From contig JASKMD010000008.1 of the NCBI GenBank assembly GCA_030144725.1, forward strand, positions 20,895,593 to 20,959,592: DNA of 64,000 bases, given 5' to 3'. The stretch comes from Haematococcus lacustris (Eukaryota; Chlorophyta; Chlorophyceae; Chlamydomonadales; Haematococcaceae). A program made the position numbers and the translations under genes. The notes under the pieces were generated by a model. That model was not told the DNA's origin and searched no databases. It saw nothing but the letters and a program-made list of their open reading frames with translations. Positions 2-46,830 of this stretch are shown here, piece after piece. The number at the start of each line of letters is the position of its first letter. The first letter of the stretch is position 1.

Positions 2-265
2 ACACTGGCAAGTGACAAGAAGGAAGATGCTGAGTGCTTGAGGCTTCTGCATGCACGGGCACCACACATTGCCAGCGCCCACATGACCTTGAATGTGCAT
101 CTGTTGAAGGAGTATGCACGGGAGTGCTTGGGCTGGAAGGGCAAGAGGTTGACGCAGAAGAAGCCATTGCTTAGGGCTGACATCCTAGAACATCTGAGGT
201 GGGAGCAAGAGATGGAGGAGGATCAGTTGGCTGAAGTGGGGGTTGACGAGGCAGATGAAATGTAA
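2..265 (+). CDS. 3' end of an unidentified protein-coding gene (partial)
   Basis: An open frame enters from the left edge of the window and ends at a TGA at 263-265. The visible ~87 residues are charged and probably helical, with a basic middle (WKGKRLTQKK) and an acidic tail (EQEMEEDQLAEVGVDEADEM) that is typical of a natural C-terminus. No start codon is needed because the frame is open at position 2. I do not recognise the family. It could be the end of a host gene or of a transposon gene; the acidic tail is compatible with either. It lies about 2.2 kb upstream of the RNA polymerase I gene and on the same strand. Function not assigned. Confidence 0.4.
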   Translation, partial: TLASDKKEDAECLRLLHARAPHIASAHMTLNVHLLKEYARECLGWKGKRLTQKKPLLRADILEHLRWEQEMEEDQLAEVGVDEADEM

Positions 266-9266: not shown

Positions 9267-9495
9267 GTGGAGCGGGGAAGGGGGAGGATGAGGGTAAGGC
9301 GAAGGTAGGTTGGCAAGGGGCAAAGCTAGGGCAAGGGCAAGGGCAAGGGCAAGGGGGAGCGATGAACTGTGGTGGGTATAGTGGGTGGATGAGCTGAATG
9401 ATGTGTGAATGAAGAAGAGTGGAGAACCCAGCCTAGTACTCAGCCAATGTCGCACTGTAACACTTGCCCTGCCCGTCCCTGCCGCTGCTTCCTCC

Positions 9496-20156: not shown

Positions 20157-21060
20157 GTGGCGTTCACGCAGGGACGGATGCAGGGATTGAGGGGGGGGCG
20201 CAGGGACAAACGCAGGGATGGAAGGGGGGGTGCAGGGACGAACGCAGGGATGAGCGCAGGGATGAGCGCAGGGATTATGGGCGCAGGGATGAGCGCAGGG
20301 ATTAACGCAGGGACGAGCGCAGGGATTTTGGGCGCAGGGATGAGCGCAGGGATAAACGCAGGGACGAGCGCAGGGATGAACGCAGGGACGAGCGCAGGGA
20401 TTATGGGCGCAGGGACGAGCGCAGGGATTAACGCAGGGACGAGCGCAGGGATTATCGCAGGGATTAACGCAGGGATTAACGCAGGGATTATCGCAGGGAT
20501 TAACGCAGGGATTATCGCAGGGATTAACGCAGGGATTATCGCAGGGATTAACGCAGGGATTAACGCAGGGATTATCGCAGGGATTAACGCAGGGATTATC
20601 GCAGGGATTAACGCAGGGATTAACGCAGGGATTATCGCAGGGATCAACGCAGGGATTATCGCAGGGATTAACGCAGGGATTAACGCAGGGATTAACGCAG
20701 GGATTAACGCAGGGATTAACGCAGGGATTAACGCAGGGATTATCGCAGGGATTAACGCAGGGATTATCGCAGGGATCAACGCAGGGATTATCGCAGGGAT
20801 TAACGCAGGGATTAACGCAGGGATTAACGCAGGGATTATCGCAGGGATTAACGCAGGGATTAACGCAGGGATTAACGCAGGGATTAACGCAGGGATTAAC
20901 GCAGGGATTAACGCAGGGATTATCGCAGGGATTAACGCAGGGATTAACGCAGGGATTAACGCAGGGATTAACGCAGGGATTAACGCAGGGATTAACGCAG
21001 GGCTCGAGTGCAGGGACGGACGCAGGGCTCGAGTGCAGGGACGGACGCAGGGACGGATGC
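20157..21060 (+). repeat. 12-bp satellite (GCAGGGATTAAC units) in the left arm of the foldback element
   Basis: Units such as GCAGGGATTAAC and GCAGGGATTATC alternate irregularly, flanked by more diverged GCAGGGACGAGC units. Because the period is a multiple of three, long Ala-Gly-Ile-Asn frames appear on both strands; they have no start context or domain and are not annotated as genes. Confidence 0.9.
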
Positions 21061-22609
21061 AGGGGCAGACGCAGGGATTGTAGGAACGTGCATGATGCTT
21101 ACAGCAGTGTCTAACACAAGCACAAATTACCTTCTCCGTGTTTGCTACATCCAACTACATACATCACATCCATCTACTGCGATCATTTAGGCTGGAGTCT
21201 GGCTGCTGCATGTCAGTTGGCTCCTGCCTGTAAGCTGGCTGCCACCAAGCTGCTACGGCCTCTTGGCTGCTGATCCTGGCTTGCACCACTGCTCCATGGC
21301 CACACCACTGCCAAGAGGCTCCTGCACCCCTGCACAACAACAACATGCACACAAGGGGACATGTGCACAAGAGCTGTCACCTTACTGATGAAGGACGCAC
21401 CCACGACGTTCATCTGCAATCAGGCAGGCAACACAGATGTGGTGGAACGTGACGCTATATAGATGAAGCGCGACTGGTGCTGCGTGACTGCTACCACGAA
21501 AACGGCGGCTGCACCGCACTGCGACATCGCACCTGGCATAGTGTACGAGTGCAAGCCGGATCCTGCAAGCCTGCGAGCGTGCAAGCCGGCAAACCTGCAA
21601 GCCACGAGGCGGCAAGACACATCGCACATCGCTCAATTGCCAGCCGAAGGCACCTACCACCACTAGCGTGCAACAAGCCCTCCTCTGTGGCAGCCACCAG
21701 CCAGGCCTTGCCAGTTTCTCGTCGCCTGATCCCGCTTGGGGAAGCAATATGTGTGCTGCCTTGTATCCTAAGGGATGAACGATGCCGCCGTTAGAACTGC
21801 TCTACAACACGCAAACTTCGTCACTCGCAAGCTTCGCGATTCACTAACTTTGAAAGTTCACTAACCAAGATAGCGCTTATCCAGACTGTGCTAGGCCTTG
21901 TCGGGAACGTACTGCGATGTATTGTCAAAGGCTTGCGTCAAGATTGGCCTTAGTAGGAGGAATGAAGGTGCACCGACAAGGCCTGGCTGGTGGCTGCCAC
22001 AGAGGAGGGCTTGTTGCACGCTAGTGGTGGTAGGTGCCTTCGGCTGGCAATTGAGCGATGTGCGATGTGTCTTGCCGCCTCGTGGCTTGCAGGTTTGCCG
22101 GCTTGCACGCTCGCAGGCTTGCAGGATCCGGCTTGCACTCGTACACTATGCCAGGTGCGATGTCGCAGTGCGGTGCAGCCGCCGTTTTCGTGGTAGCAGT
22201 CACGCAGCACCAGTCGCGCTTCATCTATATAGCGTCACGTTCCACCACATCTGTGTTGCCTGCCTGATTGCAGATGAACGTCGTGGGTGCGTCCTTCATC
22301 AGTAAGGTGACAGCTCTTGTGCACATGTCCCCTTGTGTGCATGTTGTTGTTGTGCAGGGGTGCAGGAGCCTCTTGGCAGTGGTGTGGCCATGGAGCAGTG
22401 GTGCAAGCCAGGATCAGCAGCCAAGAGGCCGTAGCAGCTTGGTGGCAGCCAGCTTACAGGCAGGAGCCAACTGACATGCAGCAGCCAGACTCCAGCCTAA
22501 ATGATCGCAGTAGATGGATGTGATGTATGTAGTTGGATGTAGCAAACACGGAGAAGGTAATTTGTGCTTGTGTTAGACACTGCTGTAAGCATCATGCACG
22601 TTCCTACAA

Positions 22610-23435
22610 TCCCTGCGTCTGCCCCTGCATCCGTCCCTGCGTCCGTCCCTGCACTCGAGCCCTGCGTCCGTCCCTGCACTCGAGCCCTGCGTTAATCCCT
22701 GCGTTAATCCCTGCGTTAATCCCTGCGTTAATCCCTGCGTTAATCCCTGCGTTAATCCCTGCGATAATCCCTGCGTTAATCCCTGCGTTAATCCCTGCGT
22801 TAATCCCTGCGTTAATCCCTGCGTTAATCCCTGCGTTAATCCCTGCGATAATCCCTGCGTTAATCCCTGCGATAATCCCTGCGTTAATCCCTGCGTTAAT
22901 CCCTGCGTTAATCCCTGCGTTAATCCCTGCGTTAATCCCTGCGATAATCCCTGCGTTGATCCCTGCGATAATCCCTGCGTTAATCCCTGCGTTAATCCCT
23001 GCGATAATCCCTGCGTTAATCCCTGCGATAATCCCTGCGTTAATCCCTGCGTTAATCCCTGCGATAATCCCTGCGATAATCCCTGCGATAATCCCTGCGT
23101 TAATCCCTGCGATAATCCCTGCGTTAATCCCTGCGTTAATCCCTGCGATAATCCCTGCGCTCGTCCCTGCGTTAATCCCTGCGCTCGTCCCTGCGCCCAT
23201 AATCCCTGCGCTCGTCCCTGCGTTCATCCCTGCGCTCGTCCCTGCGTTTATCCCTGCGCTCATCCCTGCGCCCAAAATCCCTGCGCTCGTCCCTGCGTTA
23301 ATCCCTGCGCTCATCCCTGCGCCCATAATCCCTGCGCTCATCCCTGCGCTCATCCCTGCGTTCGTCCCTGCACCCCCCCTTCCATCCCTGCGTTTGTCCC
23401 TGCGCCCCCCCCTCAATCCCTGCATCCGTCCCTGC
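22610..23435 (-). repeat. Mirror copy of the 12-bp satellite in the right arm
   Basis: Reverse complement of the satellite at 20157-21060, about seven units shorter. The unit order is largely conserved between the arms. Confidence 0.9.
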
Positions 23436-28343: not shown

Positions 28344-28650
28344 CAGATGCTATAGACAACATCTGCACAGCCAAGGCTCGAATGTAATAGTCGACATCTG
28401 TGCAGATGTCGTTGTCATCAGCTGCACAGATGTCGGTCTAGACATCTGCACAGCCAAGCATTGAATGTAAAAGTCGACATCTGTGCAGATGTCGTCGTCA
28501 GCAGCTGCACAGATGTTGGTCGCGGTATACGACATCTGTGCAGATGTCGACTTCACGCAGCTGCACAGATGTCGGTGACGCTTGCATCTGTGCAGATGTC
28601 AACTTACTGCAGCTGTGCAGATTAAAGACAACCGACATCTGCACAGATAT
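28344..28650. repeat. Palindromic array GACATCTGTGCAGATGTC, right part
   Basis: At least eight copies of CGACATCTGTGCAGATGTCG or its complement alternate with CAGCTGCACAGATGTCGG, spaced about 40 bp. The core is palindromic apart from the central TG/CA pair. This is the continuation of 25020-25105. Confidence 0.85.
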
Positions 28651-28993: not shown

Positions 28994-29287
28994 TCGTATC
29001 TCCTCAGCCCGATTTTTCCTCGATTTTAGGTTTAAACCCCCATTCTTAGAACCGCTAAAAAGGACATTCCATCAAGCCACTTTGGCAAAATTTTCAACTT
29101 TTCTCATGAACTTTTCTGCGAGTGTATGGTCTTCCACTCGCGCCGATTAAGGCCGGAAGTCGCCTACGTCATTTCTTCCCGGGAGGCGTACTGCAGATAG
29201 CCCCAGGAAAGGACGTCTCATCGCCGTTGTAATCATCGAAAAACTCAAAGTTGCTGCGATGTTATAACTATTTGAAAAATCGCCCGA
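28994..29287. other. No gene seen
   Basis: AT-richer sequence than its surroundings with no supported ORF or repeat, lying just left of the large Tnp2 transposon. Confidence 0.5.
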
Positions 29288-30208
29288 ACCTGTACAGGGT
29301 CCTACCGACCCTGTACAGGGTCCTGGGCCACAGGGTTCTGCCGCACGCCTACAGGGTCCTATGACTAACGTCTACAGGGTCCTGCCGCACGGCTACAGGG
29401 TCCTGCGACTCAGGTCTACAGGGTCCTGCCGCACGCCTACAGGGTCCTGCGACACTTGTCTACAGGGTTCTGCCGCACGCCTACAGGGTCCTACGACATT
29501 TGTCTACAGGGTTCTGCCGCACGCCTACAGGGTCCTGCGACATTTGGCTACAGGGTTCTGCCGCACGCCTACAGGGTCCTACGACGTTTGGCTACAGGGT
29601 TCTGCCGCACGCCTACAGGGTCCTGCGACACACGTCTACAGGGTTCTGCCGCACGCCTACAGGGTCCTGCGACACACGTCTACAGGGTTCTGCCGCACGC
29701 CTACAGGGTCCTGCGACGTTTGGCTACAGGGTTCTGCCGCACGCCTACAGGGTCCTGCGACACACGGCTACAGGGTTCTGCCGCACGCCTACAGGGTTTT
29801 GCGACGTTTGGCTACAGGGTTCTGCCGCACGGCTACAGGGTCCTAGGACGTTTGGCTACAGGGTTCTGCCGCACGCCTACAGGGTCCTGCGACGTTTGTT
29901 TACAGGGTTCTGCCGCACGCCTACAGGGTCCTGCGACGTTTGTTTACAGGGTTCTGCCGCACGCTTACAGGGTCCTGCGACACTTGTCTACAGGGTTCTG
30001 CCGCACGCCTACAGGGTCCTGCGACGTTTGGCTACAGGGTTCTGCCGCACGCCTACAGGGTCCTGCGACGTTTGGCTACAGGGTTCTGCCGCACGCCTAC
30101 AGGGTCCTGCGACACACGGCTACAGGGTTCTGCCGCACGCCTACAGGGTCCTGCGACACACGTCTACAGGGTCTTGCCGCACGCCTACAGGGTCCTGCAG
30201 GTCATACC
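29288..30208 (+). repeat. Left subterminal repeat array of the Tnp2 transposon
   Basis: About 40 half-units of ~22 bp alternate between TACAGGGTTCTGCCGCACGCC and TACAGGGTCCTGCGACGTTTG, giving a 44-bp higher-order period. Two CCTGTACAGGGTCCT copies mark the outer edge (29289-29323). The array is the reverse complement of the right-hand array. Tyr-Arg-Val-Leu reading frames through it are artefacts. Confidence 0.9.
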
Positions 30209-30374
30209 GCTAGGTAGCTAAGGCATTCTATCACTAAATGCTGATGGTGTGACAGTTGCAGCAGCAGCAACATGACAGTGACGCAGCCCCAACAACCATA
30301 AAACAGGAACAGCATTACAAGCATCTATTCTGACATCCGTTCTTACTGGGTGCAGCACCGTGATTGATGAATGA

Positions 30375-33300
30375 CTAGCTGCGGCTTAGGCTGTGCGCTG
30401 GCACAAAGAACATACGGCCGTAGCCCTCCCCATCCTCAAAGCTGGTCACAAAGACTGTGAAGATCTTGGTGGCATCAAACATATACCAATGCTGATCTCC
30501 ATAGCCCTGGTGCATGCTGCCCATGGCTGATTGCTGCGGGCGCTCCTCAACTGGTGGAAGGGGGTCAGCCTGACGCTGTGATGCACCGGCTGCAAGCCTC
30601 TGGGACTTCCTGGTGCCACCTGTGCTGGCTGCCTCCGCTGCTGCCTGATCCACACCACGCTTTGCTGACCTGTGCTGCTGTGGTCCACCTATACCGCTGG
30701 GCCCAGCAGCCCCTTCTGCATTCCCGTCTCCTGGTGGCTCTCCCCCCCCCTGACCTCCTGCGTTAGCCGCTGCTCCAGCTCCTGCTGCCTGCTGTGGCCT
30801 GGGAATAGCCTGACCAGTTGCTGCCAAACATGAGGGGTGGGATGTAGGGCGGGTCAAGTAGATGCGGCTGACTGCTAGACGTAGGAACACCCCAGGCAGT
30901 TTGGGGTGCTCCAGACGAACCCAGAACTGCACATGGCCAGCCCAAATGGCCCACTTGTCGTCATCGAGCTCGAACGGGATGCTGACCCAGGTGTTGTTGC
31001 GGGTTATGGGGCGTTTGTACACACTGCTGAAAACAATGGTGCCATTGCAGTCTGCCCGCTGGTAGTACCGCACTGGATACGGGGATGCAGGGTCAGCGAC
31101 CCGTTGATCCTCCTTGGCCTCCTCCACTGCCTCCCTTGCGGTTAGGGCCTCACCGAACACCTGCTTGACGTGCCATGGGCGCCATGGGGTGGCCTCGTCG
31201 CTTTTCTGCAGATCCTGGACTGCCTTCATGCAGCCCCTCATCATGGCACCCGGGCTGTTCTGTAGTGGGCACTCTGCACTGCCCGCTCCCAGCAGCAGGG
31301 CCTGCTGCCCGTCCTGTGTCAGCTCGTCCTTCAGGCGGGCCTTGTAGTCCTGCTGTGCCTGTGGCTCAGCCCGGTCAAGCAGCCTCTTGCTGGCGTTATG
31401 CCCGGCCACCCGCATGGCAATGTGGGCATCCAGCTGTGCTCCAGGAATGCCGCTGGTGGTGATGGACTTCAAGTCATGCAGGTCACGCTCGATCCAGAGC
31501 TCGCCAAACAGGCATGTCCTGCCCACATTGCTCTCTTGCATGAACAGCCTGTGCACACCACAGCCATGATATCATGTTGATGCATGGTCTGCCTGCAGCA
31601 TGCATGCATTGTTGATGGGTAAGGTTGGCCTGCATGCTACTGTACTACTAAAACTCTCACCTGCAGGCCGTTGTGTGGAGGTTGGGGCAGACTTGGTCAG
31701 TAGGCACTGACAGCTTGCCCTCGTTGTCGCCATGCGCAGCTGGAAGCAGAGGATCACGGCGGCAGCGCTCCAACCTGGCTGCATAGGTCTTCAGATGTGC
31801 ATAGCCTGCCTCCATCCCCGCAGGTGTGGCGCTGTTCTCCGAGCCTGAATTGGGCAGACAAATCCTCATTGTTAGGTATATGTTAGTCATCATGCACCGG
31901 GGGATTGTTAGGTATATGTTAGTCATCATGGGACCGTGCCTATAGATGCTTGTTTGTAATTTACCTGGTGTCAAGTAGTGCAGCATAGCGCCCTCCAAGG
32001 CTGTCCACAACCCACGGTAGGGCTCTGGCAAAAGGTTGCCCCGCAACACGATGGGTGAGAAGTGCACATACCAGTGCTTGTAGTCCTCCATGCGCCATCC
32101 ACTGCATGATGACATGAGCATTGCAGCACCAGTGCAACCATAAGCGTGTCATGACATGCACCTTGTATTGTCAGCATCCTTGCCTGTCAGTTGTGACATG
32201 ATTATGATATACTGCACAATATGATTATGGCTTACGTGCGGTTGGCAAGGTCTCCCAGGTCCCGTCCCAAGTCAGATGGGGATTGAATGGCTGCTCCACG
32301 CTTGATTATCTCACGCCTCACATCAATGTGAAGGCCATCTGCACTCATGAACCACTCCAGCTGGTGCTTGAGCAAACCATACATGAAGCTGTGGTACACA
32401 GGCACCGGGTGGGCCAACCGGGCGTCCAGGTGTTTGAGCAGCAGGGGCAGGAGGGGCTGGGCGTGGCAGCCCACCACCCTAGGTTCGCCTTGTGACCACC
32501 CATGGATGAAGGGGGCACCTCGGTCCATGATCTGCTCGTGGGTGAACTTCATGCGCACGTCATAGATGAGCACATACTCCTGCAGTCCGCCACCGCAAGC
32601 AAGGATGGTGTGTGCCAAGGGATCCTTGTGTCTGATTTCAATAGCACATGCTGATGTGTGCGTCAAGTGTTCCATACCTCCCGGTTGGAGCCTGGTAGGG
32701 TCTGCAGCGTTGGCGAGTCGTAGCCAAGGGGCGCCTTCTCTGTAGGGGGGTTTGGGGGCTTGCTGATGTTGCAGTTGTAGCACATCTTCAGGGCGCTGTG
32801 GCCCATGGCCCTGGTCAAAGTGGCTCTACATGCACACAATCACGCAATTCATTCCTCAATGGTTGTAATATGTTTGTGGGTGGTACATGGCAGGGTACAA
32901 GTTGTATAGGGATAGACTGGACTGGGAGGTGGTGGAATCATTTGTAGGTGCAAGCTGTTGGCCACCCAGGTCACCCGGGCCCTCGATGTGCTTGCTGACT
33001 TCCTGGCAGATGGCTTTCATGTAGCCTGTCAGGTGAGACTGGTGCTTTCCTCCGTTGATGACGGCCAGCACTGAGCTGCACGCCCGCTTGCCGCACACCT
33101 CAGCCGGCACATCCAGCAGCCGCAACAGAATCACACCCACTGACCAGGTGCCGTTCTTGCCCAGGGTCATCCAGTCAACCCCAATCATGAAGTGGGCTGT
33201 GTTGGGGGAGGTGGCCACAACCTCATGTAGCTTGGGCTGCATCTCTCGCCATGCAGGGCCTGCCAAACAACAACATCATGGTAAGGTGCATGTCACTGTA

Positions 33301-35019
33301 CTAATCACCTTTCTAAGCCGTCAATTCTATGCCAAGGTCAGCCCATGACCACTCACTTGCTCGAAATGAGCCAGGAGGTGGGTCCACGCCCCGAGCTCGC
33401 CTGAACCAGGTCATCACGTCCTTGCGCTCCATGATGTTCCGCACCACTGTGTCCCAGCCGAACAGGGACATGCTCCACCGAGGCTTTAAGGTGAACTCCT
33501 GTGGGCTCCCTGTAACCAAGCAAGGGGCAGCATACAACCCATGTATACCTGTACAAGTGTCAATAGAGCTTCACCATGCCCATGTTTATTGGTTTCACCT
33601 TTTTTGTCGTTCACATGGAAGCGAGGCGTCTCACAGTAGTCGCACTTGTCATCCTGGTGGGCGAGCCACTCAGACCTATGCATGCATGCACATGAAGGCA
33701 ACCTTGACCCCAACAAACACCATGTGTAATGCGCCATGCATGCATAGCCTAATCCACACCCTTTCCCCTGATCTCACCGTCGTATCTTCGGGTAGGCGAA
33801 GCCTGGGCAGTACTTGTTGTTGGCCTTGTTGTCCTTGCCCGCGTTGCACACATGCACCTCGTACTCATTTGCGTGCTGGACGCCCTGCAAACTCATCAGC
33901 TGGTAGAAGCTGGTGATGAGGTTGAGATCAGGCTGGTTTGCAAGTAGCCTACGGATCAGCTTCAACACCCCCTTCATCTGCTCCTTGGTCAGCCTCATGT
34001 CCAACAGCCTGCTCAGCTCGTCCATCATGTCCTTGCCTGTCAAGGGGCAGTTCCTGTAATGGCATGCACAATGACAAGCAACTACTATATTGAACAACTC
34101 ACAGCTTGTGATACTAATATCTGTTATTTCTAAGTACCTGAACACGGGTTGGTGAAGGTTGGCATCAAGCTTGAACACCTTGCTTCGACGTGCCCTGGCG
34201 CCATCCCCCCCTCCTTCATCCCCCTTTGGACCCCCCGGAGCTCCTGGACCTCCTGGACCTCCTGGACCTGCTGGACCTCCTGGACCCCCGGGACCTCCTG
34301 GATACCCTTCCCCTTCCTCATCACTGTCTTCACTCCCACTGTCATCACTACCACCTCCGTCCCCTCCTCCGTGGACTCCTCCCCTTCCTCCTACACCCCC
34401 CTCTTCTCTGTCTCCGCGCTGTCCCCCCCTGTTGTCCTCCTCTCCCCTCCCACGCTGTTCGTCCCCTCCTCCCTGTCCCCTCCATGCACCCTCTGGAATC
34501 CTGCCACCCTCTTGTCCCGCTGGGGCTGCCTGATCCCTGCCTCCTTGCCCGTCCTCAGCCACCCCTCCTCCATGTCCTTGCCCGTCCTCATCCACCCCTC
34601 CTCCATCTCCACAGCTCCCCTGCACACATGTCGTCACAACATGCGGACAACATGTGGCCTGCGGCGCAAATTGTCCGCGATGAGGTGCACGCATTAGCTG
34701 CCTCATGCGCGCATGTACGTCAGCGCGTACTAACTAAATGTAAGCGACATCTTACTGCCGACTCTTGCGATGTGTGTTGCTGAGCGTTTGGGGACTGGTC
34801 TTTCGCCTTAGCCTGCCTCTCCGCCCAAGCCTTCGCGCCTTCAGCCCCCACGAACTGGTGATGGCTCTTGGAACAGTGCGTGCGCATTCCTTTTATGCCG
34901 CCTGATACTCCGCACACTAGGCATTGATAGGCAGTCTTCACCATGACTGCCTGTGTCTTGGGAAGCCTGGAGAGTAAATGGTCCCATTGTGTCCGGCCAT
35001 CGCGGCCCGCGTTGGCCAT
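30375..35019 (-). CDS. Tnp2-like transposase (EnSpm/CACTA type), 11 exons, ~1,176 aa
   Basis: Exons on the minus strand, all phase-consistent: 35019-34756, 34619-34138, 34053-33778, 33675-33599, 33509-33357, 33259-32966 (end approximate), 32823-32678, 32579-32236, 32101-31965, 31844-31661, 31548-30375. An N-terminal C2H2 finger (CLVCGVSGGIKGMRTHCSKSH) is followed by an acidic region and a collagen-like Gly-Pro tract. The Tnp2/Transposase_21 core follows: KCDYCETPRF, FTLKPRWSMSLFGW, MIGVDWMTLGKNGTWSVGVI, LTGYMKAICQEVSKH, ALKMCYNCNISK, IYDVRMKFTHEQI, WRMEDYKHWYVHFSPIVLRG, VCPNLHTTACRLFMQESNVG and LWIERDLHDLK. The C-terminal third is less conserved. The expected role is binding the subterminal repeats and cutting the ends. 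A KDZ-type transposase was considered, but the Cys pair plus 'WSVGVILL' block fit Tnp2 better. Chosen start: the ATG at 35019. Confidence 0.85.
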
Positions 35020-35165
35020 CGCGGCCCGCTCTCTGTGTACCCACCCGGCGTCGCTTGCTGGCCGACAAAGTGACTTTTGGTTCACTGAGGACGATAATTT
35101 TGTGAGTAAGCACCGCTACATCGTGTTGGCGCCGTCTTTCTAAACCGCAACAACAATCCTTTGAA
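35020..35165. promoter_or_regulatory. Shared divergent promoter region of the Tnp2 transposon
   Basis: Only ~146 bp separate the leftward transposase ATG (35019) from the rightward ATG (35166). Both genes must be driven from this stretch or from sequence overlapping their 5' ends. No TATA box is obvious. Coordinated expression of the genes is inferred from this layout. Confidence 0.5.
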
Positions 35166-38100
35166 ATGTACCGCAACACGGTCGCCAAGAAGATGCCAGG
35201 CACTAAGCCCACCGACAAGAAGGTATAGTAATTCCCGTACCAATACCGCCTGTCTGCCGCGATGCCTTACCGTGCCAGGCACCTTCATGCTTTCATTCCC
35301 TCCATGAACTATCGTTGCTGCAGATTAAGGCTGCTGCCCCTCGCACAGCTGACTCTGGGCACGAGTCCGACGAATTGCCTTTGGCCCAGCGACCAAGGGG
35401 GCAGCCCCTTGAGCCTTTTGCCTCTTCTGATGATGAAGGGGAGAGGGTGGGAGAGGAGGAGGAGCTGGAGGATGAGGGGGAGGGGGAGGAGGGTGAGGAT
35501 GAGGGGGGTGAGGATGAGGGGGAGGAGGATGAGGGGGAGGAGGGTGAGGGGGCGGATGAGGAGGAGATGGAGGGGGAGGAGGAGGAGGAGGAGGAAGAGA
35601 AGCAGAAGCAGAGGCCAGCCAAGAAACGGGCGCGCAAAGGAGGGAAGCAGGTCCCCGATGAGTTCAGTAAGATCATCCTGGCGCAGGTGAGCATTGTGTT
35701 GCGTGTCTATGCTGCCTGATTTGCTGTGGTCACGTTGCATGTGCCTCAATGTCCTTTGATAACAATGACCCATCGTTCCCGTGTGATTTCAGTACAAACA
35801 TCATGCACCTAACGCCGACAAGCCCTTCAGTGTGTTGGGCAAATATGAGGTTAGTGTAGTGCTCACGCATCAATTGACCATAGCCACAATTCATTACTGC
35901 CCATGTCACCTTGGTTATCTATACCCAATGCATCCTTGCAGCAAGATGCCGTCAAGCTCTGGGGCAAGTTCGCCCCCGAATACATCCGGATGTGGTGCCC
36001 GCGTTCTGTGGGCCAGGTGATTGTGCAATGAATGGAGTAGCCATGTAACCAACCTAATTTCCTCTCTGATGTGCATGTTAGTGAAACAGTCTTGGTGTGT
36101 GTTGTGCAGTACACCATCCCCGGCTGTGTACCAGGGGAATACCCCAAACTGGGCAGCAACTCTGTGGAGGCCAGGTGGAATGTCCCCATGCGGGCAATCA
36201 TCGGCCTCGTATGGAAGGAATTCACCAAGGCCAACCCAGCCTACCTGGCTTTGCTGAGCTACTGGATGTTGCTGGCGGCATTCAAAAAGTGGGTTGCATG
36301 CATCCAACCATCATGCACCCATAGCATGCAACCCATAGCATGCATCCAACCATCATGCACCCATAGCATGCAACCCACTGCGTCATTAGTACAGGTCCTC
36401 ATCATCGGACTGGTACCCTTGAACGTGTAGGTCATACGATTGGGTCAGACGTCCGACCACACCTAAGCAGCTGGCCCGTGTGCCGAGGACAGCTCGTAAG
36501 ACAGCAGAGATCCAGAAGGCAGATGGGGGGTGGGAGTCGAAGTTTGGCTGCCGGTTGTTGGAAGCCAAGGCAGCAGCGGTGGCTGCAGGCACCCCGTACA
36601 GCAATGACGATGTTGTGCCCACTGACATGGAGCCATTCCTGCCCTTAGCTGCTCAGCTGAAAGCAGCCTCAGGTGAGTGGAGCCAGAAAAATGTGGTGAG
36701 GTGCCAGGACCCTGTGGTGAGGTGCCAGAACCCTGTAGGCCAGAACCCTGTGGTGAAGTGCCATAACCCTGTAGGTGTGCAGCTGGACCCTGTGGTGAGG
36801 TGCCAGGACCCTGTAGGCCAGAACCCTGTGGTGAAGTGCCAGAACCCTGTGGGTGTGCAGCAGAACCCTGTGGCGTGGTGCCAGGACCCTGTAGGTGTGC
36901 AACAGGACCCTGTGGTGAGGGGCCAGAACCCTGTGGGGCTAACCCATGACATTGCGTGCACCCCTGATCGCAGAGAACTGGAAGAAACCAGACAAGACGC
37001 CAGAAGGCAAGCACCCTGAAGCTGCCAAGGCCTGGAAAGCAATGTCCCAGACATTCTATGACCAGTTTGACGAGGTGGCCCGTGGCCTAGCAAGGTCTAT
37101 CCCCGCCGGCAGCAATGCAGACCCGGTGAGTATCTCATTGCAATGCTGGTTGAGGTATGCAATTTTACATGTTGGCCGAGTATGTGTGCTTTGCTTGATG
37201 CTGTGCAGGTGGCGACGGAGGCGAAGGCCAAGACGCTGCTGTTGGAGGCATGCACCCAGGACCAATCCTGGTGGAAGGCAAGTAGCTAATATGTAACGTG
37301 ATTACCCTACCATTCCCTACCATACCATATCCCATGCCATACCTTCCAAGCTTCATATTGCCACCTTGTTGTGTGCAGTTGACGACCAAGACCCGGCTTG
37401 TGGAGCACAAGGCGAAGCTGTTGCTGGAGCTGCAGGATGCCAGCAGTGCAGGGCAGCAGGCAGGCCCAGCTTCACCCCCTAGCCGAGGGGGCAAGGCAGC
37501 TGCCAAGGCAGCTCTCACCACACCAGCTGCAGCCAAGCGTAAGGCTCTGGGAGGCGGGGGTGCCAAGAAGAGGCCTGCAGGCCGAGAAGCAGGGGCAGAG
37601 GTAGAGGAGCTCGCCGCTGCGCTAATGACAGGCTTGGCAGCAGGGGCTGCAGAGGCGGCAGAGGCAGCAGCAGGGGCAGCAGTGGCGGCAGAGGCAGCAG
37701 CAGGAGCAGCAGGGGCGGCAGGGGCAGCAGCAGGGGCAGCAGGGGCGGAAGGCTTGGCAGCAGGGGCAGCAGTGGCGGCAGAGGCAGCAGCAGGAGCAGC
37801 AAGGGCGGCAGGGGCAACAGCAGGGGCAGGGGCAGGGGCAGGGGCAGGGGTAGGAGCAGGGGCAGGGGCAGGGGCAAAGGCAGGGGCAAAGGCAGGGGCA
37901 AAGGCAGGGGCAAAGGCAGGGGCAAAGGCCGGGGCAAAGGCAAAGGGTAGACGCCGTGGTGGCGCAGTGGTGGCAGCAGGGGCAGTGGGGGCAGCAGCAG
38001 TAGGAGCAGGGGCAGCAGGGGCAGCAGGGGCTGTGGCAGGGGCAGCAGGGGCTGTGGCACCCGCCACAGCAGGGGCAGAGGCAGGGGCAGGGCCAGTGGC

Positions 38101-38227
38101 CCCCGGCACAGCAAGGGCAGAGGCAGAGGCAGAGGCAGGGGCAGTAGCAGAGGCAGTGGCAGCAGCAGCAGCAGGGGTAGATGCAGCAGTGGCAGCAGCA
38201 GCAGCACGCAGTGACTTGTTTGATTAA
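35166..38227 (+). CDS. Transposon-encoded acidic and Ala/Lys-rich protein, 9 exons, ~668 aa
   Basis: Exons: 35166-35222, 35324-35686, 35793-35849, 35942-36016, 36110-~36291, 36471-36672, 36974-37125, 37209-37277 (GC donor) and 37379-38227. A basic N-terminus (MYRNTVAKKMPG) leads into a ~60-residue Glu/Asp/Gly tract and a basic NLS-like piece (RPAKKRARKGGKQ). A ~250-residue region with conserved-looking aromatics follows (GKYEQDAVKLWGKFAPEYI, ARWNVPMRAIIGLVWKEF, SYWMLLAAF). The final ~230 residues are almost only Ala, Gly and Lys/Glu, including AKAGAKAGAKAGAKAGAKAK, like a histone H1 tail. I recognise no catalytic domain. By position it could be the TnpA-like DNA-binding accessory protein of EnSpm elements; that is inference. 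Intron 6 (36673-36973) contains the transposon's own subterminal repeat motif. Confidence 0.75.
36690..36950 (+). repeat. Internal copy of the transposon's repeat array, within an intron
   Basis: Around twelve units of CCAGGACCCTGTGGTGAGGTG or CAGAACCCTGTAGGTGTGCAG, the same sequence family and orientation as the right array at 41878-43420. Confidence 0.9.
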
Positions 38228-38541
38228 TGAGATGCTAGAAGTTCATGACATGCTACAGGTTCATGGACTAGTTGATCCAAACCTTGCAGTGTGTGTTGTG
38301 GACCTAGTGCAGCGTTTCGCTGACTGTGTGCAGGGTTCCAGTGACCCAGTGTAAACTGCACTAGAACGTGTTCACAAATACCTGAACGAGGCATAACACG
38401 CGACAATACTGAACACTGGGATAAGGCAAGCAGTGCATATCACCATGCCCGTGGTTTGCAGTATTGTTGATCCCATGCCATTTGCCATTTGACATTCGAA
38501 AGTCCATTGCGGCCACGCGCACACTATCAAGGCTACGCACA

Positions 38542-41500
38542 ATGGCAGCAGCAGCAGCAGGCAATAATGCACTGGAAGAAGTCGCCGTTGACATGATGAC
38601 CTTTCTGGCGCGATGCGGCCCCCGCACTCAGGTAGACGCATAATCAAGCCTAACACAGTCCATCGGTAGCACTGCACTCATCAACGGTGACTACTTGCAT
38701 GTAGGCTGCGACCGGGCTGGCCAGCATGAATGACCCCTGGCGTGATGTGTGCTGTGGTTTCTGCGTGGCCAAAACTGTTGTGCCCTGTGATATGGAGACG
38801 CAGAGTAACACAGAGGCGATTGTGGACAGGTGAGAGCCCATGCACCCCAATGCTCATGAGGACGTGCCCAAGTGTGTGACTTGTTTGCAATACAGGTCCT
38901 GGAAATACGTTGCAGAGAATTACCCCCAACCCTCTTCCACAAGGCGCCTCAAGTGGGACACGTACTTCGCCTTCTTCAACAACCATTTCATGGGCATACA
39001 TGAAGCCAGTCCCCCTGAGGGGTTAAAGCCGTTCGCTAGCTTGTGGGGCGTATACAAGCGAGGTGATGAGTTAGTTGGTTGACTAGTTGCCAGTAGGACG
39101 TCAAGGTATCCATGCATTCATGTCTATGTTAACTATCATGTGCAGATGCGGAGATGAAGAGTCAGGGTGACACAGATTATGTGTACCTATGTGAAGTGCA
39201 GGGCAGAAAGGATTGTGCTACTTTGGCACAGTTTGTGTTGAGCACTGAGCCCCCTACCCTTCCCTCTCCAGCCCCCTCCCCTGCCCCCCAGCCATCCCCA
39301 GCAGCAGGAGTGCAGCAGCCCCCTGCCCCCTCCCCTGCCCCCCAGCCATCCCCAGCAGCAGGAGTTCAGCAGCCCCCTGCCCCCTCCCCTGCCCCCCAGC
39401 CATCCCCAGCAGCAGGAGTTCAGCAGCCCCCTGCCCCCTCCCCTGCCCCCCAGCCGTCCCCAGCAGCAGGAGTGCAGCAGCCCCCTGCCCCCTCCCCTGC
39501 CCCCCAGCCATCCCCAGCAGCAGGTGTGCAGCAGCACCCAGCCCCAACCACTGTCCAACAGCCAGCCTCAGCAGGGGTTGTGCGACAGCCCCCCGCCACA
39601 CCAACAGCGGGTGTACCTGGGTTGAAGGCCCCCACCACAGGCCTAGGAACTGCCCTGCCTGCAGGTGTGCAGCGGAGCCCTGCCCCCTCACCTGTCCAGC
39701 GGCATGCACCAGCAGCACGTGTGCAACTCAGCCTTGCCCCCTCCATTCCCCTGTTGCCTACACCAGCAGCAGGAGGGCAGCATCAGCACCTTCCGTCAGT
39801 GCAGCCCCGCCGCCAGACACGCAGAGGACAGTGGCCACAGGTGGGCACCAACACCTGGGCGACGGGATCAGCAGCGGGTGGGCAGCAGCACCAGCATCAG
39901 CAGCAGGACCTGCGACAGGTGACTGAAGAGGAGCAGCAGCAACCTGTAGGGGAGGGTGCTGGTCCCTCATCATCCAAGAGGCCGAGGACTGCCGAGGATC
40001 AGGTAGGATCACAACATTACAGCACATATGAGCAAGACAGCATCATAAAGCAGTGTGACAGTGGCTCAGATTCCCATTGCTTCATTTGCCATTGCAGGCC
40101 CTCATACAGTGCCTGATTCAGAAGGTGGACACCGTGCAGGACACAGTCAACAGATTGGAGGTGAGACCCAAGCTGCCAAAGAGGCATAACAGCATTTCCA
40201 ACTTGTAAACGACCCACTGAATGTAGGATGAGCTGGTGGGCAGAAGGAGGCTCCAAGTGTTAGCAAACACAGCCCTGACTGGAAGTGGCCAGTCAGGAGA
40301 TCAGGTGAGCAGCTATTAATAGCCTACAACAGGTTTAAACAGTGTGCACTGTTACGCTGACCTAGCACAGGGTTTCAATAACCTAGTAGAGGGCTTCACT
40401 AACCTAGTGCATGGTTTCACTGACTCCAGCTGTGGCTCAGGAGGATATGTGTGGATTGTGTTTGCAGTCAAGCACCGGAGGCACCCTGCTGCATGGAGGA
40501 GCAGTGCGGTTTCCCAAGAATACACAGGTACGAGAGGCATAACTAGCTGATATGAATTGATATTGACTGATACTTGTGAGCATGTCGTGCATTGCTACCT
40601 TGCACGCAGGGAATGGTGTATCAGCTGCCCACCTTGCTGCCATACACAGGGGATGTCTACCAGCCTCATGAGCTAGAGCAGTGTCGCCGAGCAGCTGTAG
40701 CTCATGGCCTGACCATCTTCCAGCTGCCCCAGCTAGCCATAGATATGGCAGCGGTGGTTGCGGCCAGCATCTTGATCACCAGGGTCTATAACCACATGGT
40801 GTTCAGCTCAGTCAATGCCAACAGCAAGACACAGTATGGCACTGGCCAGAGGGTGCAGGTGGTATTGGCCAAGTCGGACAAGAACAGCAGTGGCGACCTA
40901 GACACCACCCTAACGCTGTTGACAGACAAGTACAACGAGGCTGTGTACAGCGCGCTGACAGAAGAGAAGAAGAAGGAGGTAAGATACAGATAGATTAAGG
41001 TGTGCAGCAGATGACACAAGCCACAACAGTAGTACATAGCCATTGCTGCAGAAGCATTTCCTAACTCACCAAGAGTCAATGCTGCATGAAGCACAATAGA
41101 CAGCACTTTGGGTGTGTTTGCAGGTGGATGAGGCCAAGAAGGTGTTGACGCGGTACCTCACTCTCCTGCAGCCGGTGCTGAGGCAGCTGCTGGGCCGCCC
41201 CCTGAACGCCCTAGCTTCCATCATCACTGACCCAACCTGGCAGCGTCGCCTGACCAGGACGGGGAAGATGGTGACTACACTGGCCGAGCAGCTGGCTCAG
41301 GCCCAGGCTCCCCACACCGACTTCCTCCCTGTTGGCCCAGGGATGGATGACGGCCTGGTGTTCCTGCTGGCTCTCCAGGACTTCCCCCTGGTTGCCTACA
41401 TGGGCAGCCACAAACTGTCCCGGTTGGCTGCAGCCCATTGCCGGCGGACGGCTGATGGTCAGAAGCAAGTGGTGGAAGTGGAGGACATGGATGCCCTGGC

Positions 41501-41822
41501 CCTGACCTTGCCACATCAACTGGGCACAGAGGTCCTGGTGAAGGCTGGGCAGCTGGTGTTGTTCCGAGGCAACACAGTGCATGCTGGCAACGTGGGGGTG
41601 GCTGGCTCGTGCTGCGCCAGGCTGTATGGCTTTGGCCGGCCTAACACAGTGGCTGACAACACCACCATGAACACCTCTGAGCTGGGGGACTTGTACCATG
41701 GGTTGTTTCAGCCCATCCAGGATGAGGGCATTGGGCCCAAGATGGCAGACTGGAACAGGCGCGGCATGGCAGGCCAGTGGGTCAGAATCTCAGAGCCATA
41801 CAGGCCTGATCAGCGTATTTGA
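38542..41822 (+). CDS. Transposon-encoded protein with C-terminal 2OG-Fe(II) dioxygenase-like domain, 9 exons, 835 aa
   Basis: Exons, all phase-consistent: 38542-38631, 38705-38829, 38896-39062, 39146-40002, 40098-40160, 40227-40304, 40468-40527, 40610-40978 and 41124-41822. The N-terminus has a Cys-containing segment (DVCCGFCVAKTVVPC) and an aromatic-rich block (KWDTYFAFFNNHFMGIHEA). A Pro-rich part follows with five 18-residue repeats (PSPAAGVQQPPAPSPAPQ), then a basic KRPRTAEDQ. The last 170 residues look like a double-stranded beta-helix oxygenase: HxD metal ligands H667/D669 (APHTDFLPVGPG), VFLLALQDFPLVAYMGSHK, a distal His756 (GQLVLFRGNTVHAGN) and Arg769 (CARLYGFGRP) thirteen residues later for 2-oxoglutarate. 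Substrate unknown. TET/JBP-type DNA-base oxygenases are known to accompany transposons, so oxidation of a modified base is a hypothesis; prolyl-hydroxylase- or phytanoyl-type oxygenases are alternatives. Confidence 0.75.
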
Positions 41823-41877
41823 ACGATTGACAATGCATGGACAGCAAGCTGGGGTTGAGCTACAGCAGAGGGTCTGG

Positions 41878-43629
41878 TGTGGTGCCAGGACCCTGTGGAC
41901 AAAGACTCTGCGGTGTGGAGCCAGGACCCTGTAGGTGTGCAACAAGACCCTGTGGTACCAGGACCCTGTGGTGAGGGACCAGGACCCTGTGGTGCCAGGA
42001 CCCTGTGGTGAGAGGCCAGAACCCTGTAGATGTGCAGCAGGACCCTGTGGTGAGGAGCCAGGACCCTGTGGTGCCAGGACCCTGTGGTGTGGTGCCTGAA
42101 CCCTGTGGGCCAGGACCCTGTAGCCGTGCGGCAAGACCCTGTAAGCAAGTGTCGCAGGACCCTGTAAGCGTGCGGCAGAACACTGCAGAAGTGTGTCATA
42201 GGACCCTGTAAGCGTGCGGCAGAACCCTGTAGACGTGTGTCACAGGACCCTGTAGCTGTGCGGCAGAACCCTGTAGACGTGTGTCGCAGGACCCTGTAGC
42301 CGTGCGGCAGGACCCTGTAGTCAATTGTCGCAGGACCCTGTAGGCGTGCGGCAGAACCCTGTAGACGTGTGTCGCAGGACCCTGTAGGCGTGCGGCAGGA
42401 CCCTGTAGACCTGAGTCGCAGGACCCTGTAGGCGTGCGGCAGGACCCTGTAGACGTGGGTCGTAGGACCCTGTAGACGTGCGGCAGGACCCTGTAGACGT
42501 GTGTCGTAGGACCCTGTAGGCGTGCGGCAGAACCCTGTAGACGTGTGTCGCAGGACCCTGTAGGCGTGCGGCAGAACCCTGTAGACGTGGGTCGCTGGAC
42601 CCTGTAGGCGTGCGGCAGAACCCTGTAGACGTGGGTCGCAGGACCCTGTTAGCGTGCGGCAGAACCCTGTAGACGAGGGTCGCAGAACCCTGTAGCTGTG
42701 CGGCAGGACCCTGTATACGTGTGTCGTAGGACCCTGTAGACGTGCGACAGGACCCTGGGAAATCTGTCTTAGGACCCTGTAGCCGTGCGACAGAACCCTG
42801 TGACATATGACTTTGTGGTGTGGTGCCAGGACCCTGTGATGAGGTGCCAGGACCCTGTGGTATCAGGACCCTGTGGTGTAGTACCAGGACCCTGTGGGCC
42901 AGGACCCTGTGGTGAATGCCAGGACCCTGTGGTGAGGAGCCAGATCCCTGTGGTGCCAGGACCCTGTGGTGTGGTGCCAGGACCCTGTGTGCCAGGACCC
43001 TGTGGTGAGGGACCAGGACCCTGTGGTATCAGAACCCTGTGGTGTGGTACCAGGACCCTGTTGGCCAGGACCCTGTGGTGTGGTGCCAGGACCCTGTGGT
43101 GAGGTGCCAGGACCCTGTGGTTCCAGGACCCTGTGGTAAGGTGCCAGGACCCTGTGGGCCAGGACCCCTGTAGGTGTGCAGCAGGACCCTGTGGTGAGGT
43201 GCCAGGACCCTGTGGTGCCAGAACCCTGTGGTGGGGTGCCAGGACCCTGTGGTGCCAGAACCCTGTGGTGTGGAGCCAGGACCCTGTAGGTGTTCAGCAG
43301 GACCCTGTGGTGAGGTACCAGGACCCTGTGGTGCCAGGACCCTGTGGTGAGGTGCCAGGACCCTGTGAGCCAGAACCCTGTGGTGTGTTGCCAGGACCCT
43401 GTGGAGAAAGACACACATCGTAGGACCCTGTACAGGGTCCTAGCACACATGGTCAAAAGCATCCAAACGGGGTCCACATGACCAACCACCGGCTATGTAG
43501 GAATCCTAACTAGGTTCTTTCACATAGGGATGCAAAGAATGATTATAATATCAACACTCATAGGGTACACAGAACCCTGTACAGGGTCCTACGACCATGA
43601 TGTCGCTAGGACCCTGTACAGGGTCCTAG
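41878..43629 (-). repeat. Right subterminal repeat array of the Tnp2 transposon
   Basis: It starts 56 bp after the stop of the oxygenase-like gene. Three blocks: GGTGCCAGGACCCTGTGGTG-type units (41878-42120), GCAGGACCCTGTAGGCGTGC alternating with GCAGAACCCTGTAGACGTGT (42120-42790), and again the first type (42800-43420). Perfect palindromes of 22 bp (43421-43442) and 24 bp (43606-43629), both containing AGGACCCTGTACAGGGTCCT, mark the outer edge. Opposite in orientation to the left array. Confidence 0.9.
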
Positions 43630-43926
43630 GACACGGGCCATAGCTCATCACTGGCTGCGACTTTTTGCATGCCACCTACTGAGTTGGGCAGTTGTAATCA
43701 CCCTTTACAACCTCTCATACTCACATTTCATGAAAAGTCACTTTGGTCACACGGTGCCAACTCCCTTAGCCAAAATCAGGGTCACAGCCCCACACCTGGC
43801 CCAGCAACTCGACACCGAGTAAGAATTACACTTTGGCCCAAGAGAGTCTTGTCATCCCCTAGGTCACAGCAGCCTACATACCAAGTATCAAACCTCAACT
43901 CTCAGGTTTTTCAAGCCAGCCAGGCC

Positions 43927-45729
43927 TTAATTTGCACGAGTGTCCTTGCGTATGGTCTCGGCTAAGTGGGTGTGTTGAGTGAGTGCCTTGTTTAATTGGT
44001 CCGTCCACCGTGAGTCCGAGCAGTATTTGATTTCTATAATACAGACCCGCTTGGTGTCTTTGCCGCCCTTGCTTGCCTTCTTATGAGGGGTCACCATGAG
44101 GATATCCGGCCTGGTGGTGTGTTTAGTATCTTCTGGTTTCAGTCCGAGTGTCTGGAGTGTTGTGTGTAGCGTGTCGCTGGGGAGGTCCAGGCTTTCCTTT
44201 GCGCCCTTCTCCCAGCTGCCGGTGTCCGCAAAGCTGATGTACCCGCCTAGGGTTCCCTTGCTGATAGCTTTAGTGATGAGGCGGCCCGCCCCGTTGTGCC
44301 TTTCTTGCACCATCGGTAGAGTCTCGCTGCAGCCCGAGAGGAGGTGAGTGGCACTATCCGCATTCCCGCAGAGCGGGCATCGGTCATCCGTCGCCCGTTT
44401 CCAGCGCATAGCTAGTTTCTGGTTGTATAGCCCTCCGGTACGGTAGAGTAGGGCAGTGCGTTGCGCGTGGGTGGAGATGTTCGCGTCGATCATCACTCTT
44501 TCGCCTGCTCCTTTCGCCGCGGCTTTGGTGATCTCCTGAGTCATCTGGTAGTAGATACTGTCCTGATTGGCAAGGCCCAACTTGTGTTTGCGGTGCATGT
44601 GTGCCCGCACGCTGTGGCGGCAGTCCGGCAATGGGGCGGGGAATTCGCCGTCGGCTGCGTTGCTGAGCCAGTTCTTCGTCTCATTCCGTGTGGTCGGGCT
44701 GTAGGCCGGGGTGTTGGCGAGCTCTGGGTGTAGCGCCGCATACTTGGCGAGGGCATCGGCGCCTTCGTTGCCGATGATGCCCGAGTGGGCCCTGACTTTG
44801 TAGAAGTGGATCGTGGCGGGGCTGTCGATGATGAGGGTGGCGATACCGGTCAGGATGTCGTTGTGTCTGTGGGTGATGAGCGACATCGGGTTAGCGAGGG
44901 CTCTGCGGATCTGGTAGAGGGAGCAAAGGCTATCGGTGGCGATACGTTTGGCCCCCGCTTTGAGTGCCGCGTGTATCGCCGTGAGTTCCGCCCTGTTAAT
45001 GGTTTTGCTTTCTGGGTCGTTCAGGGCGGCTGTGATGAGGACGTTGTTCTCCGGGATATAGACCCCCGCCCCGACGCTCTCCGGAGCTGCCCCCGAGGTC
45101 TTAATGCAGCTGCCGTCCGTGTACGCGATCGTGGCCCATTCGGTGATGGCCATCCGTGGCTGCGTCGTGGAATGGTGCGTGAGTTGTTGGTGGCCGCGCT
45201 GGTGCCCCGAGGTGGGGAGGTCCTTGTCCCGCGGCAGGCGCATGTGTTGTTTGTGGCCGCTGGGGGGTGTGGCTGGCTGGCTTTGATTCGTTGGTCTGTT
45301 GCGGACTGGGTGTGTGTCTCGTTGGGGGTGGAGGGCAGTGGCGGTGCTAGCCAGCCATCCTTGGGGGTTGCCTTTGGTGACGAGTTGTTGTCCTGCTGCA
45401 TTCCAAATGACGTAGATGTGGAGGTTGGCGTGCTTGCCTGACTTGGAGCTTTTGGTCTTGGTGGGGGGTATGTTAGCCAGGTGCTGGCAGTACTCAGGGT
45501 AGCGCCGCAGGGTGTCAATGTGTTTAGGGTAGGAGATGCCCTTTTTCCCCGGGATCAGCATGATGGTTGCCATGGCCTCCTCCTGTGTAGCTGAGTGTAT
45601 AGCATGGTTGACGCATTTCAGTGCCACTGCATCGTCTGCCGGTACATTCCATGTGGATAAGCCAGTGTGGCGTACCAGTAGGCAGTTGTGGTGTGCCCCA
45701 AATGCCGTGTCGTTGGTGTCAGGGCTCCA
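43927..45729 (-). CDS. LINE polyprotein, RNase H and C-terminal zinc-motif part
   Basis: It continues in the same frame as the two upstream segments after the TAG at 45732-45730. RNase H residues, numbered from the first internal codon at 45627, are visible as D171 (AYTDGSCI), E214 (NRAELTAIHAAL), D232 (IATDSLCSLYQIR) and the later HSGIIGNEGADALAKYA. Near the C-terminus CPLCGNADSATHLLSGC is a CCHC-type motif common at the ends of LINE polyproteins. The RNase H removes the RNA template during reverse transcription. There is no independent start; it would be expressed only as part of the larger protein. Because of the upstream stops this copy is probably inactive unless readthrough occurs. Confidence 0.85.
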   Translation of the reverse strand, partial: WSPDTNDTAFGAHHNCLLVRHTGLSTWNVPADDAVALKCVNHAIHSATQEEAMATIMLIPGKKGISYPKHIDTLRRYPEYCQHLANIPPTKTKSSKSGKHANLHIYVIWNAAGQQLVTKGNPQGWLASTATALHPQRDTHPVRNRPTNQSQPATPPSGHKQHMRLPRDKDLPTSGHQRGHQQLTHHSTTQPRMAITEWATIAYTDGSCIKTSGAAPESVGAGVYIPENNVLITAALNDPESKTINRAELTAIHAALKAGAKRIATDSLCSLYQIRRALANPMSLITHRHNDILTGIATLIIDSPATIHFYKVRAHSGIIGNEGADALAKYAALHPELANTPAYSPTTRNETKNWLSNAADGEFPAPLPDCRHSVRAHMHRKHKLGLANQDSIYYQMTQEITKAAAKGAGERVMIDANISTHAQRTALLYRTGGLYNQKLAMRWKRATDDRCPLCGNADSATHLLSGCSETLPMVQERHNGAGRLITKAISKGTLGGYISFADTGSWEKGAKESLDLPSDTLHTTLQTLGLKPEDTKHTTRPDILMVTPHKKASKGGKDTKRVCIIEIKYCSDSRWTDQLNKALTQHTHLAETIRKDTRAN

Positions 45730-45732
45730 CTA

Positions 45733-46830
45733 GGTGGTGGTTTCTGGTCTAACTGTGAGTGGATCAGCCCATCTTTGGACGGTACTTGGAAAGCTTCGTG
45801 TGGCGTGTAGGGTGTTCAGGGCTTTGTCTTGTGCCCCTCTCATGGGGTGGTGGCTGCTCTGTGCGTCCTGTCTCCTTAGGAGGGCCACTACCTCTGTGGC
45901 CAGGTTGCGTGTGTGGGGTGTGTGTTGTAACCAAGCGTGTAGATGTTGGTGTTGGTCTTTTGTCAGGAGGCCAACTGTGCGACCCGACTCGTCGTGGACC
46001 GTTACGTGTTGCACTAAGTCGTGCCGTGGCATAATGGGCTCCCCCGTGCTGAGGCTCATCGCGGGGGCGGTCATGTGGGGGTGAAGTTGGAGGAAGGTTT
46101 CGCATTTGCCCGTGCCGACGATGTCCGTCTGCGGGTTGATGGGGTAGGTGTGAAAGGTGGCCTTCGAGTGCAGGTTGGTGCACCGGGGTAGCCAGGTGTG
46201 CGGGTCCGGTAGTCCCTGTCGGGTGTGGGCCGGCAGGTGCGTGTCGGGCCTCGCATGTCTGGCCTCTTGTATCTGCCTATTTTCCTCGTCGTAGTCGTTG
46301 CGCTTTGCTATGTAGTCCAGGTGTGCCGTGATGAGCGGCGCCGGTTCGAGAGTGGGGTGCCAGTGTACTCGTATGAGGTCCGAGTGTGGTGACTGACGCA
46401 TGGTAGTCTTGAAGTCATTGCTGCCAAACTTGCATATAGGGCACAGCCAGTATCCTGGTTCCTTGTGTCCTGACAGGTGGGCTTCCTCAAGGCAGGCTGG
46501 GTGGTAGGCCCTCTTGCAGTTGTGGCACATTGGGCTGTCTCCTTTTGGTAGCCAGCATAACTCACAGGTGCACACGTCCTTAGCCTCTTCCCTGCTGATG
46601 GTCTCTATGTGTGTGGGTGTATAGCCTTCTTCTGCACATAGTGGTAAAGCCCATCTGTCTATGACTGTGGGCTTCCAATGTACCTTGTAGTAGTTTTCCT
46701 TGTTGATGCCGTCCCATTGCCAGCCATCTATGCTGGTAATGACCTCTTGGTGGCCGTACATGGCCCCTAGTATGCAGCCTAGCTTCTTGGGTTTACAACG
46801 GCAGGCTTTATCCACCTTCCAGCTGGAGAG
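45733..46830 (-). CDS. LINE polyprotein, PHD-finger part
   Basis: Between the RT stop (TGA 46833-46831) and the TAG at 45732-45730, in the same frame as both neighbours. It contains a C4HC3 PHD finger: CTCELC, MCHNCKRAYHPACLEE and GYWLCPICKFG. PHD fingers usually read histone H3 tails, so this domain could guide the element to particular chromatin; that role is inference. Upstream lies a segment that resembles a bromo-adjacent or chromatin-reader linker only by composition (VHWKPTVIDRWALPLC); I do not recognise it. A similar phrase VHWHPTLEPAPL follows the finger. Confidence 0.8.

Follow-up and report, generated by a model that had tools for sequence, protein, structure and literature searches.

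The oxygenase gene and the element that carries it

The window analysed here, 64,000 nucleotides of the green alga Haematococcus lacustris (contig JASKMD010000008.1), contains a complete CACTA-like transposon of 14,808 bp (29135..43942) that carries a gene for a PhyH-type Fe(II)/2-oxoglutarate (2OG) oxygenase (38542..41822, plus strand). Homology between the window and ten other copies of the element ends at about 29135 and 43942. At these points lies an imperfect 20-bp terminal inverted repeat, CACTCGCGCCGATTAAGGCC on the left (29135..29154, plus strand) and, on the right, a minus-strand repeat that reads GGCCTTAATTTGCACGAGTG on the plus strand (43923..43942), with 17 of 20 bp matching and the form CACTCG...CGAGTG. 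All six elements with both ends in hand are flanked by a 2-bp target-site duplication (TSD; TC in the window, AT in C49, CA in C136, GT in C143, TA in C40m and AT in C83); the other five of the eleven lacked one end in the stretch examined. These inverted ends and duplications support the claim of an initial annotation that the oxygenase gene lies inside a real transposon.

From left to right, the element consists of a subterminal repeat array (29284..30198, found by repeat search, mostly 44-bp units with ACAGGGTYCTG motifs), a minus-strand transposase gene (30375..35019), a plus-strand middle gene (about 35166..38227), the oxygenase gene and a second subterminal array of CAGGACCCTGT units (41904..43404, from repeat search and comparison of copies). 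The initial annotation had the oxygenase gene between the transposase and the right array; both do lie on its two sides, but the middle gene intervenes between transposase and oxygenase.

The nine oxygenase exons (38542-38631, 38705-38829, 38896-39062, 39146-40002, 40098-40160, 40227-40304, 40468-40527, 40610-40978 and 41124-41822) form a scripted, all-GT/AG splice chain with an uninterrupted frame across 38542-41822, as the annotation had read it, and the frame is intact in the window copy. This chain encodes 835 aa; splice variants with one or two GC donors encode 838-841 aa. Exons 1-3 and exons 5-9 have the same junctions in P0005, a protein of a different H. lacustris gene set (84% and 92% identity), whereas the 3/4 and 4/5 joins are not as in P0005. 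Exons 8-9 (40610..41822) encode a predicted double-stranded beta-helix domain, with H667, D669, H756 and R769 exactly where the annotation had placed them. Next to this domain the model shows, with low confidence in each case, an extended Pro-rich region and a long helix, and Pfam gave no family above its cut-off for the N-terminal region.

Family and fold of the oxygenase

In a whole-Pfam scan of the 835-aa, all-GT/AG version of the protein, PhyH (PF05721) is the sole family at E ≤ 1, with a score of 26.0 bits where the cut-off is 22, far above chance; exon 9 alone scores 26.7 bits. Structure prediction, which the annotation had proposed as a check, returned a double-stranded beta-helix of the PhyH type rather than a fold without one. 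OkaE, AsqJ, FtmOx1, KanJ and SnoN, which we take to belong to the PhyH superfamily, are the best matches in the structure comparisons, and the best 50 of each comparison are, as far as we recognise them, PhyH-type small-molecule oxygenases. Sequence identity is 10-18% for the best 50 matches of one comparison. Because direct sequence matches to solved structures are weak (for an oxygenase, the best has E 0.27 and is confined to the stretch around the distal His), Pfam and the fold together are the basis for the family assignment. The Pfam match, the HxD...H...R alignment, the predicted beta-helix and the structure matches agree with the annotated 2OG-Fe(II) oxygenase with its catalytic residues in order, and we infer an active enzyme that uses iron and 2OG as ligands.

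The tie to the TET/JBP DNA-base oxygenases that the annotation had drawn finds no support here. Pfam contains a TET/JBP model, which gave no match at E ≤ 1 in the same scan, where HMMER filters can hide weak matches, and we recognised no TET/JBP structure among the best 50 matches per comparison, a depth below which that family could still rank.

Copies and linkage to the transposase

We searched the H. lacustris assembly (307.9 Mb, 597 contigs) with the last exon of each gene, scoring 150 of 424 candidates for the oxygenase, fragments included, and 143 of 489 for the transposase. The genome thus holds at least 150 matches to the oxygenase exon and at least 143 to the transposase exon; 8 of the 150 and 6 of the 143, all partial, were left out before pairing. 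The 142 oxygenase matches entered fall into type I (96 matches, 82-100% identical), type II (32, 50-59%) and type III (14, 28-31%). Full-length matches make up 79 of the 96 in type I, and 75 of these 79 last exons are free of stops.

Among the matches listed, a transposase lies in the geometry of the window (5′ ends turned towards each other on opposite strands, at most 30 kb apart) beside 56 of 96 type I and 25 of 32 type II genes, and beside none of the 14 of type III; a uniform-placement estimate gives an expectation of about 0.6% per locus. The gap in the 56 type I pairs has a median of 9.55 kb, with 20 pairs between 9.0 and 10.2 kb. Seen from the transposase, an oxygenase gene is in place at 75 of 107 class A, 4 of 7 class B, 6 of 8 class C and none of 15 class D (34-36% identical) loci. 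The gene therefore recurs in many other copies in a preferred place beside the transposase, and the absence from other copies that the annotation had named as a counter-sign did not appear.

No window-type transposase was found within 30 kb of the 14 type III matches, nor in one 15-kb type III locus, where the gene is flanked by arrays of palindromic repeats. In L044, a type III oxygenase gene is preceded by more than 100 copies of a TCAGCACTGA / TCAGTACTGA palindrome (positions 256-3777). A fourth subfamily is represented by one protein (P0061), encoded on a contig of 1,220 bp that is deposited under a Bosea metagenome-assembled genome and is probably algal DNA binned with bacteria, that is, contamination. 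Type III and IV relatives retain HxD, H and R. Protein searches, with 8,000 candidates scored in each, returned relatives from H. lacustris only, plus P0061, in protein sets that transposon genes of other algae may escape; a scan of viral contigs gave 40 pattern matches and no oxygenase relative.

Selection and exchange between element lineages

Across 29 copies, exon 9 contains no stop and has a pooled pairwise ratio of nonsynonymous to synonymous substitution rates (dN/dS) of 0.27 (bootstrap 0.165-0.415). The metal-binding residues are invariant in the copies read: H667, D669 and H756, along with S698, H699 and R769, show no change in any of the 29 DNA copies, whereas 34 of 232 residues vary. 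HxD...H...R is also kept in alignments of types I-III and I-IV, and among the 83 of 92 database proteins that aligned, the exceptions at H, D, H or R are one Lys for the Arg, one protein gapped at HxD and others whose sequence does not reach the sites. The oxygenase gene thus seems to have been kept working by selection.

The gene has also been swapped at least once between element lineages. Type I genes pair with class A (50) and class C (6) transposases, the latter 57-59% identical, and type II genes with class A (21) and class B (4). Two elements were examined in full. C83, bounded by its own ends and TSD, is 89-95% identical to the window over 38315-41872, which includes the oxygenase gene, and 71-78% over the alignable transposase pieces. 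C40m matches the window at 92-95% over the transposase body and right end, at 78% in the first-exon region and at 70% in one stretch of the middle gene; its oxygenase gene has no nucleotide match to the window and is 54% identical in protein. The class pairings and these two comparisons together require at least one exchange of the oxygenase gene.

Transposase and middle gene

The transposase gene (11 exons, about 1173-1176 aa) was read from its exon chain and from a DDE-type motif order recognised by eye (GVD, GDL, CYNC as C-x2-C, and GELWIE). In four other copies, GDL, CxxC and GELW(I/V)E are present in 4 of 4; the first D is kept in C83, C40m and C74 and is H in C166. A weak C2H2-like zinc finger at the N terminus falls below the Pfam cut-off. 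The annotation's description of the transposase as Tnp2-like found no support in Pfam, whose Tnp2 profile matches neither the window transposase nor two relatives, and the CACTA label is for this reason given by likeness. The element resembles EnSpm/CACTA in its CAC...GTG termini, its short TSD, the repeat arrays close to either end and, as read by eye, the order of the transposase motifs; it differs in a TSD of 2 bp, where EnSpm usually has 3 bp, and in a transposase that the Pfam Tnp2 profile misses. The termini, the TSD and this motif order are in line with the CACTA/EnSpm (CMCT) group of PMC12730594, which gives CMCT target duplications of 2-5 bp.

At 32963..32964, the window copy lacks 127 bp that are present in eight of eight class A copies; two more distant elements are not comparable there. 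The gap affects exon 6 of the transposase gene at its 3′ end, together with the splice donor, which we regard as lost in the window because four translated copies read through GDLGV(I/L)V at this point. Alternative GT sites nearby could serve, and the window copy may not be autonomous. The middle gene, an exon chain read by hand, encodes about 680 aa, acidic and then Ala/Gly/Lys-rich, with no Pfam match above cut-off.

A possible role for the oxygenase

Since the oxygenase gene is in frame in most of about 80 full-length copies and has moved between lineages, the simplest explanation is that it serves the element. Our preferred reading, to which we assign a probability of roughly 0.4, is that it is an integral PhyH-class gene of a multi-copy CACTA-like family of H. 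lacustris, whose enzyme may oxidise a group on the chromatin of the element. The enzyme would be expressed from the element and would oxidise a methyl or other group (on a methylated DNA base, RNA or a histone), targeted perhaps through its N-terminal region or by a middle gene product bound to the subterminal repeats, with the outcome that the transposase stays expressed or the ends stay accessible. This model of relief of silencing is taken from the account of fungal TET/JBP transposons in PMC12730594, of which the Haematococcus element would be the counterpart with a PhyH enzyme. Because the enzyme is of the PhyH class, its substrate is uncertain; demethylation of the element's own repeats may be one form of the activity. 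With the odds leaning against it, a PhyH-class oxygenase could, in an event separate from that of TET/JBP, have been taken up by a transposon to counter silencing by acting on nucleic acid or chromatin.

The base composition fits past cytosine methylation: the observed/expected ratio of CpG is 0.43 in the element and 0.31 in the oxygenase gene, and that of TpG+CpA is 1.46-1.54 in element and flanks. Several observations weigh against the preferred reading. The flanks are almost as poor in CpG (0.53) as the element, the left array is only slightly depleted (0.82), and CpG sites show a roughly threefold excess of transversions as well as of transitions, which makes decay by methylation an unclean sign. 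The matched PhyH-type structures act on small molecules, not nucleic acids, and of six type II/III relatives, five score 13.1-20.2 bits, below the PhyH cut-off, and one is not listed. No transposase is in place for 47 of 128 type I/II matches, nor an oxygenase gene for 32 of 107 class A transposases. Exon 8 has a dN/dS of 0.56 (0.30-1.00) and a stop in 1 of 28 copies. Finally, the 29 copies used for dN/dS are not a random sample and lean to close relatives, because 20 of them (L021-L040) came from the top of the match list, as the not-yet-sampled matches most like the window.

The enzyme could instead hydroxylate a protein, for example the transposase, the product of the middle gene or a host factor of chromatin or silencing, tuning transposition with no DNA mark removed. 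2OG oxygenases often act on proteins, and the adjoining transposase and middle genes, the Pro-rich region and the low-confidence long helix are in keeping with such a role; yet the closest folds are small-molecule PhyH enzymes, with neither prolyl hydroxylases nor JmjC recognised among the best 50 matches, and type I genes are carried as well by elements whose transposase is 57-59% identical, which speaks against tight co-evolution with one transposase. We regard a protein substrate as unlikely, though worth keeping in view. The five best structural matches named above are secondary-metabolite enzymes and would suit metabolic cargo, an oxygenase of small molecules useful to the host cell and carried along by the transposon. 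A gene of that kind needs few copies, whereas 128 type I/II matches are listed, 81 of them beside a transposase, in elements that otherwise hold just the transposase and the middle gene, and we find such cargo rather improbable.

Passive duplication of a captured host gene without function in the element (transduplication) has a precedent in the gene pieces captured by plant CACTA elements, and the 47 matches without a transposase in place could be so explained; the exon 9 dN/dS of 0.27, the invariant catalytic residues in the copies read and the completeness of subfamilies only about 54% alike leave it very little credence. Equally slim is the chance that the enzyme is, as the initial annotation supposed, a TET/JBP-family 5-methylcytosine oxygenase. 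Besides the Pfam scan and structure comparisons, a HxD-to-H distance of 89, which together with the GSH motif presumably fits PhyH, argues against it. The corresponding distance is 52 in CMD1, the Chlamydomonas TET homologue that makes 5-glyceryl-methylcytosine (PMC7854593). In its favour are the HxD...H...R order, an Arg 13 residues past the distal His, as for His397/Arg410 of CMD1, and the transposon-borne TET/JBP genes described in PMC12730594.

Relation to known systems

The latter paper (Kojima 2025) reports TET/JBP genes in fungal DNA transposons that include Kyakuja, Dileera, Zisupton, EnSpm, Plavaka and Helitron; with EnSpm and Plavaka among them, a CACTA-type carrier is not the oddity that the annotation had supposed. 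As described there, these transposons share with the Haematococcus element an Fe(II)/2OG oxygenase beside the transposase, mostly undisrupted coding regions and oxygenase genes that cross transposon lineages, and their function is likewise without experimental validation (section 4.2). The Haematococcus element differs in its PhyH-class enzyme, chlorophyte host, CACTCG...CGAGTG ends, 2-bp TSD and third gene. A 2OG oxygenase carried by a transposon is thus known; the oxygenase class and the host are different here. In the open-licence literature we found no transposon described with a PhyH gene, and in the literature searched none of a transposon-carried oxygenase of a class other than TET/JBP. 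That a green alga shows the same arrangement with another class of 2OG oxygenase points to a repeated solution of a shared problem.

AsqJ, OkaE, FtmOx1, SnoN and KanJ share the double-stranded beta-helix, predicted here, and the HxD...H...R order; they differ as small-molecule enzymes, and to our knowledge none is transposon-borne. CMD1 resembles the oxygenase as a green-algal protein with a 2OG-type fold and an HxD...H metal site and differs in its TET family and its spacing; the term 'transpos' is absent from the main text of PMC7854593. The VANC proteins of Arabidopsis VANDAL transposons are described as sequence-specific anti-silencing proteins and, as transposon-encoded accessory proteins that counter silencing, resemble the proposed role of the oxygenase, with the difference that no oxygenase is mentioned in the portions of their descriptions drawn on here (PMC10398659, PMC5735166). 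Transposable elements make up 50.8% of a chromosome-level Haematococcus genome, and the terms CACTA and EnSpm are absent from the main text of that report (PMC10400597).

If its substrate is a silencing mark, the oxygenase would represent a new type of demodifying enzyme. As an enzyme recruited to nucleic acid or chromatin, it would be the first of its kind in PhyH, a family otherwise known for small-molecule substrates, and would have split into several subfamilies (I-IV), with two or more of these on several element lineages in the genome of one alga. Haematococcus is grown in culture.

Other features of the window

A LINE-like (long interspersed nuclear element) element adjoins the right end of the CACTA-like element; its open reading frame with an RNase H domain (43927-46830, minus strand; Pfam E 1.8e-16) is preceded by a stretch that looks like a PHD finger by eye. 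Directly outside the left end lie palindromic CATCTGCACAGATG repeats (28359-28622), which resemble the ATCTGTACAGAT palindromes that fill part of the first 650 bases of L041, next to a type III oxygenase gene. Two inverted arrays of one 12-bp unit (GCAGGGATTAAC), about 1.5 kb apart, occupy 20232-21076 and 22610-23371, and related sequence stands next to the same type III gene (L041, 772-1506). Farther left, at 9485-12055, a 43-bp unit is repeated about 60 times at 97% similarity in a strongly C/T-rich stretch.
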